Assembly: GCA_018817585.1 (NCBI GenBank)
Contig: JAHITE010000105.1
Coordinates: forward strand, 1 to 37,010
From: Candidatus Omnitrophota bacterium
GTDB taxonomy: Bacteria; Omnitrophota; Gorgyraeia; B26-G9
Direction: 5' to 3'
DNA: 37,010 nt
This document shows positions 6,334 through 19,276 of this stretch, one piece after another; within the stretch, counting starts at the first letter, position 1; each line of letters starts with the position of its first letter. The notes beneath the pieces were generated by a model. That model had not been told where the DNA came from. It saw only the letters and a program-made list of their open reading frames with translations, and did not search any database. Position numbers and translations under genes: made by a program.

Positions 6334-8259
6334 TTATACGGCAACTTTATTTTTCGCGACTGATTTCTTTTCCGGTTCTTCCCGATAATAGCGATACTTA
6401 TAGTAATAAGGATAAAGTACATCAACATCAGTTTCATTACGAGTCTGGTTAAGGATCACACCGCAAATTTTAGCTCCAACCGCGTCCAGTTGAGTTTTAG
6501 CCCTGAGCAAAGCATCACGACTGGTACGCCCAATTTCATAGATCATGATAACCATATCCATTTTGGAGGCCATTATGCTGGCATCAGTTACTGGCAGCAC
6601 TGGCGGTGAGTCATAGATTACTAAATCAAATTTCTCTCTCAGCTCGTCGTTAAGCCTTTCAAATTCCTTGGACTCCAATATTTTTGCTGGATTAAATGGC
6701 AGCTGTCCGCTGGTTAAAAGCCATAAATTATCCAACCCAGGGGTTTGTTTAATCTGGTCAAAATCCATACTGCCCAGCATATAATCAGTAACATTTCTCA
6801 CTGCTTCATCAAACGGAACCATGCCCAAAAGAACCTCGGTCAATCCCGGTTCTCTTTTAATTCCAAAAGCCTTAGCTATCACCGGACGTCTGATATCCGC
6901 TGAAATTATTAATGTTTTAATTCCTGTTTGAGCAATAGCTAATCCCAAGTTGGTTAAACAAGTACTTTTTCCTTCCCGAGGACCAGCACTGGTGATAAGC
7001 AGGGTTTTTCTTGATTGATCCAGCTTAAGATTAGTATGCACATTCCGATATGCTTCCGCTACCGGAGAAGTTGGATTATACTGCAGCAATAAACGCACAT
7101 AGCGCTCTTCTAATTCCGTATTTTGTTTATGCAGTACCCTTTTTCTAAAGTTTTTTAAAAAGCTTCTTTTTGATTTTAACTCCTCCCCCATCATTACCGA
7201 AGGAATAACCCCGAGAACCGGGACTTTCATAATACTCTCAACATCCTCAATTGTCGCGATTGATGTATCCAGACTCTCAATAATAAGCGCAAAAGCAAAA
7301 CCTAAAACTATTCCCAAAATCCCGCTGACAAGTATCCCAAAAGTTTTATTCGGACCAGCAACTATGCTTGCTGTTACTGCTGGATTTACCACTGAGATAT
7401 CCCCGACTTTTTGCGCCTCAGTAATCCGCGCTTCTTCAAGCTTTTCTTTGAGCAAAGAATACAGCCTTTTGTCAGCCTCCACTTCTCGAAAAAGACGAGC
7501 ATAATTAAGATCTTCGCCAGATAGACCTTTTGTTTGTTTTTGCAGTTCAGCGATTCTTTCTCTAAGTTCAATTACCGAAGGATGACGTTCCGTATACTTT
7601 TGGAGTATAGAGCTTAATTCAAATTGCAGTTCCGTTAATTTTTCCTGCATCGGAGCAGCCAGAGAGATATTATTTGTTTCCTCAGAGAGTTTTTTTAAAG
7701 TTTCTTCTTTTTCTTTTAATCGTTCATCCAAAGCCGCAAGTTGTTCTTGAATAAATTGACGAGCACTGCGGGCCTGTAAAGTTTTACCCAGAAGGTTTTC
7801 CTCAATATAAACACTGGCAACAGTATTCGCGGTTTCAATGGCAAACTGCGCATTATCCGCGCTGGCAATAATCCGAATAATGTTTGTTGTGCCTTCCCTT
7901 TCAGCTTTAACCATGCCTACTATCTTACCAATAGCTTGATTAATCTGTTGCTCATCTGAGTCAGCAGAGATCATTCCCATCTTAATCGCGGTTTTTTTCA
8001 TTATCTCATTGCCGCGAATAAGCTGAGTTTCCGATTCCATCATATCACCGGGGCTATAAACTATCCATTCAGTCAAAAGCCCGGCAACAGTTTTTCTCTC
8101 TTCGAGTTTTACCGTTGTAACTGCTTCATAAAAAGGAGCTTGTTCTTTGGAAAAGAAAATACTACCTGCTAAAACAAGGATAAATGTGAAAATTATCATT
8201 GCTCTACGTCGGCGAAAAATCCGCACATAGTCTCTTAAATTCAGTTCGTATTGTGGCAT
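6334..8259 (-). CDS. Polysaccharide chain-length regulator fused to bacterial tyrosine kinase (641 aa)
   Basis: This protein joins a Wzz domain to a BY-kinase. Residues ~1-60 hold a short cytoplasmic start ('YELNLRDYVRIFRRRRAMII') and the first membrane helix. A periplasmic coiled-coil region follows (~150-280), then a GumC/GNVR-like segment and the second helix near residue 305-325. The kinase half has Walker A 'GPREGKST' (~residues 424-431), Walker A' 'LIISADIRRP' and Walker B 'FDLVIYDSPP'. The C-terminus carries the autophosphorylated tyrosine cluster 'YPYYYKYRYY'. It controls polymer length and export of the surface polysaccharide made by the downstream genes. ATG 8259 has AAGGG seven bases upstream, and a good promoter lies at 8294-8322. 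Confidence 0.93.
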   Translation of the reverse strand: MPQYELNLRDYVRIFRRRRAMIIFTFILVLAGSIFFSKEQAPFYEAVTTVKLEERKTVAGLLTEWIVYSPGDMMESETQLIRGNEIMKKTAIKMGMISADSDEQQINQAIGKIVGMVKAEREGTTNIIRIIASADNAQFAIETANTVASVYIEENLLGKTLQARSARQFIQEQLAALDERLKEKEETLKKLSEETNNISLAAPMQEKLTELQFELSSILQKYTERHPSVIELRERIAELQKQTKGLSGEDLNYARLFREVEADKRLYSLLKEKLEEARITEAQKVGDISVVNPAVTASIVAGPNKTFGILVSGILGIVLGFAFALIIESLDTSIATIEDVESIMKVPVLGVIPSVMMGEELKSKRSFLKNFRKRVLHKQNTELEERYVRLLLQYNPTSPVAEAYRNVHTNLKLDQSRKTLLITSAGPREGKSTCLTNLGLAIAQTGIKTLIISADIRRPVIAKAFGIKREPGLTEVLLGMVPFDEAVRNVTDYMLGSMDFDQIKQTPGLDNLWLLTSGQLPFNPAKILESKEFERLNDELREKFDLVIYDSPPVLPVTDASIMASKMDMVIMIYEIGRTSRDALLRAKTQLDAVGAKICGVILNQTRNETDVDVLYPYYYKYRYYREEPEKKSVAKNKVAV

Positions 8260-12833: not shown

Positions 12834-14015
12834 TTAACCAAACCTTTTTAAAGCCTGAGCTTTAATCCTTTCATAAACAATTTTAAATGGTAAAGATTTC
12901 TTTATCGCAATTGCCTTGCAATCCTCATATTCAGGCGCTATATTGAAAACCTGATCATCTGAAAATGCTATTTTTACTCTAACAATTATCCCATAATCAG
13001 TCCGAAGATTCAAGGTTTTTCTGTTTAATTTCCGACGAACAACCTTATTTATTCTAATTCCAATAGTTGAGGTTTCTTCAAAAACCAGTTTTATTATCTG
13101 CTCTAAATCCTTTTCTTCTGTTTGTATCTGCAGTAAAATTCCTGGTCTTTGCTTTTTCATCATAATTGAGCAGGTAAAAACATCCAAAGCACCGGTTTTG
13201 AACAGCCGCTCAAATAGTAAATCAAAATTTAAACCTAGGGTATCATCTATATTTGTTTCAATAACCGTAATACTACTATCCGGGCCAGCTATTTTATCTG
13301 CTTTGCCAATAACAATTCTAAGCGCATTCGGCAAATCCGCTGATTCATATGTTCCTGCCCCATAACCGATTTTTTGCACACTCATAATCGGCATATTCGA
13401 GACCTGTTCCGTTAAAAACGATAATAAAACTGCCCCAGTAGGAGTAACAGTTTCATGTCTTATTTCCGGATTAATCTTGATTTTTCGATTTTTAAGCAAT
13501 TCAAGTACTGCCGGAGCTGGCAAAGGAAATATATTATCCGCAAATTTTATAATCCCGGTTCCCAATACTACGTGACTTGCATATATTTTCTCAATACCCA
13601 AAAGTTGAATTGCTAAAACACATCCCGCTATGTCGATTATTGTATCAATCTGTCCTAATTGATGAAAATGAACCTTAGCCACTGACTGTTTATGTACTTT
13701 TGCTTCAGCCTGGGCAAGTTTTATTAAAATATTTTTTATTTTTATTTTAATATTTAAATCAAGCTTACTTTTCTCAATTAGCTTTAGCATACTCTCAAGA
13801 TCTTTAAATTTTCTCTTATCTCCTAAGACTACATCTAGTTTTGTAACTTTAATATGACCGCGTTGAACCTTTTTTACTTTCAAATCAAATGCGCCGATAT
13901 TAAGCTTTGCCAGCTCTGTTTTCAATTGTTTAACTGATACTCCTAAATCAATAAAAGCCCCAAGAACCATGTCCCCACTTATTCCTGAGCAGCAATCAAA
14001 ATAAGCAATTTTCAT
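12834..14015 (-). CDS. larC: Nickel-pincer cofactor biosynthesis protein LarC (393 aa)
   Basis: Matches LarC (DUF111) across its length: N-terminal 'MKIAYFDCCSGISGDMVLGA', 'KVHFHQLGQIDTIIDIAG', 'PLPAPAVLELLKNR', 'ETVTPTGAVLLSFL', 'GYGAGTYESADLPNALRI' and the C-terminal 'VIETNIDDTLG' plus 'MMKKQRPGILLQI' half. LarC is the CTP-dependent cyclometallase that inserts nickel into the pincer cofactor made by LarB and LarE; the cofactor serves lactate racemase LarA and relatives. In Lactobacillus plantarum LarC needs a programmed frameshift to join two ORFs; here it is one continuous ORF. It is separated from larB by a 249 bp repeat-filled gap. larE and larA are not in the window. Confidence 0.95.
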   Translation of the reverse strand: MKIAYFDCCSGISGDMVLGAFIDLGVSVKQLKTELAKLNIGAFDLKVKKVQRGHIKVTKLDVVLGDKRKFKDLESMLKLIEKSKLDLNIKIKIKNILIKLAQAEAKVHKQSVAKVHFHQLGQIDTIIDIAGCVLAIQLLGIEKIYASHVVLGTGIIKFADNIFPLPAPAVLELLKNRKIKINPEIRHETVTPTGAVLLSFLTEQVSNMPIMSVQKIGYGAGTYESADLPNALRIVIGKADKIAGPDSSITVIETNIDDTLGLNFDLLFERLFKTGALDVFTCSIMMKKQRPGILLQIQTEEKDLEQIIKLVFEETSTIGIRINKVVRRKLNRKTLNLRTDYGIIVRVKIAFSDDQVFNIAPEYEDCKAIAIKKSLPFKIVYERIKAQALKRFG

Positions 14016-14032
14016 AAAATCCTCAGCGTTTA

Positions 14033-14073
14033 GTATTTGTATCGCGTAGTGAGTATCGCGTATTGCGTAAAAA
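14033..14073. repeat. Degenerate 7-bp tandem tract (GTATCGC-type)
   Basis: Five units in strict 7-bp phase: GTATCGC (14039-14045), GTAGTGA, GTATCGC, GTATTGC and GTAAAAA (to 14073), with a partial GTATTT just before. It lies in the larB-larC gap. It is non-coding, and unit sequence differs from the neighbouring tracts. Confidence 0.75.
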
Positions 14074-14093
14074 AACTAACTAGTTTTATTTTT

Positions 14094-14124
14094 CAACTCG
14101 CAAACTCGCTAACTCGATAACTTT
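14094..14124. repeat. Degenerate 8-bp tandem tract (NNAACTCG-type)
   Basis: CAACTCG (14094-14100), CAAACTCG, CTAACTCG and ATAACTTT, with AACTCG repeated every 8 bp. It lies 20 bp from the 14033-14073 tract in the same intergenic gap. Confidence 0.75.
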
Positions 14125-14172
14125 TTTCTGCTTATGATTTTGGCTTTAGTCATTTGGGTTTATTTAAAGTTT

Positions 14173-14200
14173 AGTAATTAGAAATCAGTAATTAATTCTC
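14173..14200. repeat. Degenerate 7-bp tandem tract (AGTAATT-type)
   Basis: AGTAATT (14173-14179), AGAAATC, AGTAATT and AATTCTC in 7-bp phase. It is AT-rich, so chance is harder to exclude for this tract than for its neighbours. Confidence 0.5.
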
Positions 14201-14210
14201 TGCTTTTGAC

Positions 14211-14245
14211 CATGAGCTATGAGCCATCAGCTATCAGCCAAGCGC
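14211..14245. repeat. Degenerate 7-bp tandem tract (YATSAGC-type)
   Basis: Five units in perfect 7-bp phase: CATGAGC (14211-14217), TATGAGC, CATCAGC, TATCAGC and CAAGCGC. The first four differ only by Y at position 1 and G/C at position 4. It ends 19 bp before the larB stop codon on the minus strand. Confidence 0.85.
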
Positions 14246-14264
14246 TTTTTGCTTTTTCTATACG

Positions 14265-14975
14265 CTATTTGTTTATCAGTCCGGCTAAATATCCCGCGCC
14301 AAACCCATTATCAATATTTACCACGCTAACCCCTGGAGAGCAGGAATTAAGCATTGTTAACAAAGGTGCAATGCCTTGAAAACTAGCGCCATATCCCACA
14401 CTGGTCGGCACACCAATAACTGGCTTATCAACCATACCGCTAACCACACTAGCTAATGCCCCTTCCATCCCGGCAACAACTATCAGCACATCAGCTTTTT
14501 TCACAATATCTGATTCATCCAACAAGCGATGAATACCCGCCACCCCAACATCATAAAGCCGTTCAACCCGATTATTCATAAGCTCCGCGGTAACAGCTGC
14601 TTCTTCAGCAATAGGGATATCACTGGTTCCCGCGCTGATTATAAGAATAAGCCCTTTTTTCTCAACCTTTTTGTTATTAGCAACATATATAAGATTTGCC
14701 TCTTTATTGTAGACAAGTCCTTTACTAATTGATTTTAATGCCTTGAAAATTTCATTATTGGCTTTTGTCAGCAATAAAGTATCATTATGCTCAAGAATGC
14801 ATTGCGCTATCCGCTTAATTTGCTCAATTTTTTTCCCAGGGCAATAAATCACTTCGGGGAATCCACGGCGTTGTTCGCGGCCAATATCTATTCTGGCAGA
14901 ACATGATTTTTTATTTCTCATGTTGATTTTATGTGTCTTAGTCGGCAGGGTAGTTTTGACTTTTTTTAGACCCAT
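14265..14975 (-). CDS. larB: Nickel-pincer cofactor biosynthesis protein LarB (236 aa)
   Basis: LarB is a PurE-like (AIR carboxylase-like) enzyme that carboxylates and hydrolyses nicotinic acid adenine dinucleotide, the first step of nickel-pincer cofactor synthesis. Recognisable blocks are 'RRGFPEVIYCPGKK', 'LILISAGTSDIPIAEEAAVT', 'YDVGVAGIHRLL', 'VVAGMEGALASVVSGMVDKP', 'VIGVPTSVGYGASFQG' and 'VVNIDNGFGAGYLAG'. The N-terminal ~35 residues are basic and poorly conserved. The start at 14975 overlaps the end of the MgtC-like gene by 10 bp. Its partner larC follows after the repeat-filled gap. Confidence 0.94.
   Translation of the reverse strand: MGLKKVKTTLPTKTHKINMRNKKSCSARIDIGREQRRGFPEVIYCPGKKIEQIKRIAQCILEHNDTLLLTKANNEIFKALKSISKGLVYNKEANLIYVANNKKVEKKGLILIISAGTSDIPIAEEAAVTAELMNNRVERLYDVGVAGIHRLLDESDIVKKADVLIVVAGMEGALASVVSGMVDKPVIGVPTSVGYGASFQGIAPLLTMLNSCSPGVSVVNIDNGFGAGYLAGLINK

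Positions 14976-15648: not shown

Positions 15649-19276
<3,628 letters not shown>

Follow-up and report, generated by a model that had tools for sequence, protein, structure and literature searches.

Repeat tracts between larB and larC

The window, here the whole stretch of 37,010 nucleotides analysed from contig JAHITE010000105.1, belongs to a Candidatus Omnitrophota genome of 2.64 Mb in 125 contigs (G000) and carries larC and larB on either side of an intergenic gap (Table 1). The top match for LarB was in JACQZH010000024.1, a Candidatus Omnitrophota groundwater genome. The gap was searched for tandem repeats using TRF, and lags of 4–21 were compared with 2000 dinucleotide shuffles of the gap. 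The four tracts of 7- or 8-bp period named in a preliminary description of this DNA were all recovered by TRF; lags 7 (p = 0.0005), 8 (p = 0.002) and 14 (p = 0.0005), and only these, were in excess. The four arrays cover 114 of the 249 bp (46%) and not, as first stated, most of the gap, and, with the period kept, the units are only 70–90% alike.

The GTATCGC tract was best taken as a 14-mer in two copies, 86% alike in the repeat search; its kin, the heptads CGCGATA and ATACGCA, lie at other loci of the same genome (L057, L304). The units seen were AGCYATN, AACTCG, AGTAATT and ATACGCG. As a string of modules, the gap runs from the GTATCGC tract through the AACTCG tract, B and F to a short G, and the bulk of its sequence has matches at other loci in the dispersed-repeat search. 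Inverted repeats were absent from the gap in the repeat search. A known structured RNA was rejected as a candidate, with no Rfam match at E ≤ 5, and folding of the gap gave no notable structure (z = −1.16). Elsewhere in the window, a perfect 15-bp tandem duplication, CAGCGCGTTTAGATA (1.9 copies, 17380–17408), lies within the ORF at 16928–19276.

Table 1 Features of the larB–larC region (positions in the window) and catalogue of dispersed modules
Feature	Position	Strand	Basis or sequence
larC (LarC)	ORF 12834–14015	−	ORF list
larB (LarB)	ORF 14265–14975	−	ORF list
larB–larC intergenic gap, 249 bp	14016–14264		flanking larC and larB ORFs
Heptad tract GTATCGC, period 7; two 14-mers, GTATCGCGTAGTGA/GTATCGCGTATTGC	14039–14069		TRF and repeat search
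Octad tract NNAACTCG, 32 bp	14093–14124	+	TRF 14095–14122, period 8, AACTCGCT
Module B, dispersed; core GGCTTTAGTCATTTGGGTTTATTTAAAGTTTAG (14142–14174) and AGTAATT/AGAAATT heptads	14120–14205	+	matches at other loci
Heptad tract AGTAATT within module B	14171–14194	+	TRF period 7, TTAGTAA
Module F, AGCYATN heptads; exact AGCYATN ×3 and AGC at 14215–14238	14210–14240	+	TRF period 7/14, CCATCAGCTATCAG
Module F tail with connector AAGCGCTTTTTGCTTTT	14240–14256	+	module scan, connector enrichment
CTATACGCTATTT, short module-G-like heptads over the larB stop codon (CTA 14265–14267)	14258–14270	+	sequence, alignment
Module A			ACTTTATAACTTTATGAACTTTATAAACTTT; AACTCG octads also a listed dispersed module
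Module B			GGCTTTAGTCATTTGAGTTTATTTAGAGTTTAG and AGWAATT heptads (TTTAGTCATTTGAGTTTATTTAGAGTTTAG/AGWAATT block)
Module C			CGTCCATCGTCC...GATCGTCCATCATCCTTC
Module D			TTCTGTC/TTCTGTT heptads
Module E			CAACCTTTTTCAGGATAGCACA
Module F			AGCYATN heptads and AAGCGCTTTTTGCTTTT
Module G			CGCTATACGCTAAACGC; CGCTATW heptads at the larB stop
Unit P-K			hairpin-bearing, CTGAGCCTACATCGTGCAGGCTCAG ... GTCAAAATTACGTTCGAAAGCGCCGCTCAAAGAGAATTTTTGCC

Modules are dispersed, ordered and strand-biased, and turn over between relatives

The modules are about 20–60 bp each and mostly degenerate 7- or 8-bp tandems, each with its own unit. Module B was found at 5 places in G000 (window copy included), at 19 in the congener G001 and at 2 in G009, a relative in the same family; taken with their flanks, these copies sit inside mosaics of a limited module set. 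The non-tandem sequence between the second and fourth tracts is thus part of a dispersed block: 14120–14205 has matches of up to 80 bp at 79–86% identity in many G001 gaps. For the AGC-type pattern AGCTATNAGCYATNAGC, 131 matches (≤2 mismatches) were counted in the G000 genome, against 7 for the reversed pattern. Dispersed repeats make up 18.1% (G000) and 22.6% (G001) of the sampled intergenic DNA (reversed controls 0–0.1%), 6–15% in other members of the family and 1–9% in three genomes of other families (reversed-sequence controls 0–0.4% overall). Reversed controls were likewise near zero in the module scan of the genus, and the listed modules were absent from the other-family samples scanned (G015, G017).

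In G000 contigs taken regardless of repeats, 66 kb of intergenic sequence held 3 tracts at lag 7 and 4 at lag 14, whereas shuffled intergenic controls, proposed earlier as a check, gave about none; a higher lag-7 count (23) came partly from contigs selected for carrying AGC arrays. In coding DNA of the family the rate of heptad tracts was near zero, and no such tracts appeared in the small samples taken from further families in the class (G015–G017). An enzyme or protein lattice measuring out 7–8 bp within the gap, as the preliminary description had suggested, is not supported, the module family of each tract having the same unit at other loci; the general 7-bp preference that does exist is shared with unrelated phyla. 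Its second suggestion, repeated capture of short tandem arrays, came near to what the data show, namely tracts that are pieces of dispersed modules, and the unit switches between tracts because different modules are joined. As a whole, that first interpretation is partly supported.

Order, strand and gap class were counted in a sample of G000 (1.07 Mb, the first contigs picked for AGCYATN) and G001 (0.29 Mb), with simple ORFs ≥100 aa as gene calls for the gap classes. The order P-K-A-B-Bt-C1-C2-D-E-F-Fe-G was kept in 128 of 135 same-strand pairs (128:7), a ratio that is partly circular, since the by-eye module consensuses came from copies also counted; 100 of the 128 order-keeping pairs remain once trivially linked parts are removed. 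Modules sharing one gap lie mostly on the same strand (156:35). Between tandem genes, 33 gaps had their core modules in antisense orientation and 8 in sense (p = 5.6 × 10−5). Convergent gaps contained modules most often (38%), tandem gaps less often (11%) and divergent gaps least (8%). A connector, TGCTTTT, occurs at 2.13 per kb on the element strand, about five times its rate on the opposite strand (0.43) and in module-free gaps (0.44), often 0–20 nt ahead of the next module.

Between G000 and G001, LarB is 92% and LarC about 82% identical. The orthologous G001 gap has nothing in common with the G000 gap beyond the sequence at the larB stop (AACAAATAGCGTAT), the alignment placing CTATACGCTATTT in both; P-K, A, G, H, C and G stand in G001 instead. 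Tracts had been predicted both elsewhere in the genome and in the orthologous gaps of relatives, and are present in both, although the gaps of relatives differ in content: other period-7-like tracts in G009 (TTTAGGG ×6) and G002 (CCCTACA types), 10-mers in G003, and in G006 a gap that is nearly absent and without tracts. A 162-bp block (C-, D- and E-like) in G001 (L200) sits precisely where two conserved flanks meet directly in G000 (L171); at this one clean empty site AATC stands on both sides of the insert, which could also be a deletion footprint. In other orthologous gaps of the two genomes, modules were gained or lost and neighbouring modules retained.

Three further observations were made on individual modules. 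A G001 module B copy reaches the 3′ end of a gene (L243 1518–1638 vs L301 17408–17424), whose C-terminal codons it appears to have replaced. The P-K unit, about 130 bp with a hairpin, is dispersed in both genomes and almost identical between them at one orthologous site (L300 about 7611–7740 in G000, L186 about 14715–14850 in G001), and appears to be a short palindromic element in its own right. Module J, GACYATN heptads and thus a near mirror (reversed, not complemented) of AGCYATN, lies mostly sense to genes (7:1) and was kept between the congeners at L055 (about 7288–7324) and L190 (about 13190–13229) while adjacent modules changed.

Origin of the mosaic

What lies in the gap is probably an incomplete copy of a composite repeat of this Omnitrophota genus; the repeat, ordered and dispersed, would be made of slippage-born heptads, spread and lose modules, and have its position filtered by selection. 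Heptads would first be born by replication slippage, with the 7-bp step favoured in many bacteria, and module blocks would then be copied into new gaps by insertion or conversion. Modules would be lost by recombination between similar T-rich TGCTTTT connectors, which may be why the order is kept while the subset varies. Selection would purge copies from promoter-bearing divergent gaps, as well as the orientation that places T-runs in mRNA between genes, so that the remaining copies would lie 3′ of genes and antisense. Counting against the composite repeat are the lack of defined ends and of a clear target duplication, and no mobilising enzyme is linked to it: modules were few or none beside 20 Y1 (RAYT-like) loci, on which ground REP/RAYT mobilisation was rejected.

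Independent local slippage, by which each tract arose in place in 7/8-bp steps from unrelated seeds like general bacterial heptameric SSRs, is unlikely as an account of the whole gap. It agrees with the dominance of lag 7 in unrelated phyla, with the recurrence of AGCYATN and some other words in unrelated genomes, and with the over-representation of heptameric SSRs and the polymerase-contact hypothesis cited in PMC4692102. Many loci, however, have identical units and connectors, the stretches of module B that are not periodic, and the module order in common, and neither a shared order nor an 80-bp match at 80–86% is expected from independent slippage. As the source of the B and F sequence of the gap it is largely refuted; it may be how each unit ultimately arose, and may account for the GTATCGC tract.

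It is improbable that the modules are the diverged body of a MITE- or REP-like transposon family mobilised in trans by a Y1/RAYT or DDE transposase. The clean empty site of the 162-bp block, which has internal hairpins, the imperfect similarity of its ends (TTGTCCTAATATAG / TTGTTAATCCTGAAATAG) and the Y1 transposase matches (7 in G000, 17 in G001) are consistent with such a family. Yet the Y1 loci are not flanked by modules, module subsets are variable and ends not constant, and Y1 genes also occur in G016 and G017, whose samples were without heptad tracts. Terminal inverted repeats and constant ends, which mark the MITE class, were not seen, the gap having no inverted repeats and the subsets varying, and a MITE or REP identity of the mosaic is not shown. 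The Porphyromonas gingivalis minisatellite-bearing element (PMC4596501) is similarly dispersed with an internal tandem array, but it is a MITE, whereas no inverted repeats or ends were definable here.

Period 7, AGCYATN and known heptamer repeats

Across 79 LarB-centred loci drawn from many phyla, lag 7 was the commonest in intergenic DNA: it accounted for 8 tracts, every other lag for 0–3, and shuffles gave about none. AGCYATN arrays, searched as a 24-mer with one mismatch, were found in 34 of 145 Omnitrophota genomes and in 14 of 50 genomes sampled across phyla, the latter including Trichodesmium, a Peptococcaceae, a Chloroflexi and a Thermodesulfobacteriota; a scrambled-heptad control matched in 3 of the 50 and its reverse in 5. 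CGTCCAT had no matches in 30 genomes and AACTCAT was present in few; given these counts and the matches of the scrambled control, a universal heptad vocabulary was dropped and cross-phyla recurrence is claimed for AGCYATN only.

Mismatches in module F (150 units per position) numbered 57 at position 4, 88 at position 7 and 1–17 elsewhere; position 4 is T or C and position 7 any base, and C3, A5 and T6 hardly vary. Such uneven variation is not explained by plain slippage and neutral decay; it might be due to constraint, or to a founder array that was already mixed. An RCYA core was present in 23 of 57 unique units, against 9.8 by permutation. These patterns would suit functional arrays, in which the heptads are putative binding sites from which an RNA- or DNA-binding protein would act on the 3′ region of the gene upstream (cf. 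the proposal for TAACTGA): the AGC-Y-AT-N constraint, the RCYA core over-represented among differing units, the antisense bias and 3′-end placement, and the recurrence of AGCYATN across phyla all point that way. The content of the same gap is, however, almost wholly different between congeners, the G006 gap lacks tracts, and neither folding nor Rfam lent support, which leaves such arrays a quite doubtful explanation. Very unlikely is a bolder version, in which AGC-Y-AT-N and related RCYA words would be constrained recognition units for one putative nucleic-acid-binding or templating factor, common to several phyla and working in 7-nt steps, which would assemble or preserve ordered arrays opposite in strand to the flanking genes.

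Compared with known systems, the mosaic shares its general features with heptameric interspersed SSRs (STRR, LSSR, TAACTGA and Geobacter repeats): 7-bp tandems stand above shuffles and are mainly intergenic and dispersed, and the STRR-type analogy drawn at the outset was well chosen. Heptameric long simple sequence repeats of bacteria comprise LSSR 5–11, the STRR of heterocystous cyanobacteria, and the GGGAATC and GGGGAYT repeats of Xanthomonas and Nostoc, respectively (PMC4692102); that source, citing 2007 work, tentatively ascribes the 7-bp preference to polymerase slippage. Their intergenic 7-bp units are likewise degenerate at fixed positions and dispersed, and vary in tract length and sequence between close relatives (PMC4692102); here, in contrast, the units are different and many, and stand in near-fixed order with T-rich connectors in one antisense-biased mosaic. 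TAACTGA repeats of marine Beggiatoaceae (PMC4679880) are also intergenic heptamers common to distant phyla, with no evident transfer mechanism, but in the genome studied there they are a single word, mostly just upstream of start codons. The present modules use many other words and tend to lie at the 3′ ends of genes, with convergent gaps holding them most often and divergent gaps least, and were therefore not assigned to the TAACTGA type. The four-heptanucleotide and octanucleotide elements of Geobacter metallireducens (PMC2700814) are dispersed arrays of 4–5 tandem 7- or 8-mers as well; they are single-unit and described as putative regulator sites, whereas the mosaic here is ordered and multi-module, and none such was seen described in PMC2700814.

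Heptamer repeats as such are known in bacteria; of their ordered, strand-biased, connector-joined arrangement no description was found in the literature searched. To our knowledge, no mechanism for bacterial heptamer repeats has gained acceptance in the decades since they were noticed. The genus of G000, with about one fifth of sampled intergenic DNA in dispersed repeats, is a tractable case: because its modules have a set order and orientation and orthologous sites differ in content between congeners, slippage, transposition and functional-array models are separable by strain comparison. The case also cautions that the diverse microrepeats of one gap need not have a common local origin.

Carriage by phages or plasmids was also considered and rejected. 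The G001 composite had no plasmid match, its sole phage match was a Cronobacter phage tRNA-Arg (two records, one phage) taken as chance, and module B had no exact match in viral contigs. AGCYATN arrays were found in 40 viral-contig stretches, and no carrier was inferred from them because they lie mostly outside long ORFs and almost without other modules. In some IMG/VR viral contigs (L313, L320, L324, L334, L335 and others; UViG_3300044798_000503 and UViG_3300013103_000070 are examples), several AGCYATN arrays are present, chiefly in intergenic DNA; these contigs may be host sequence labelled viral.
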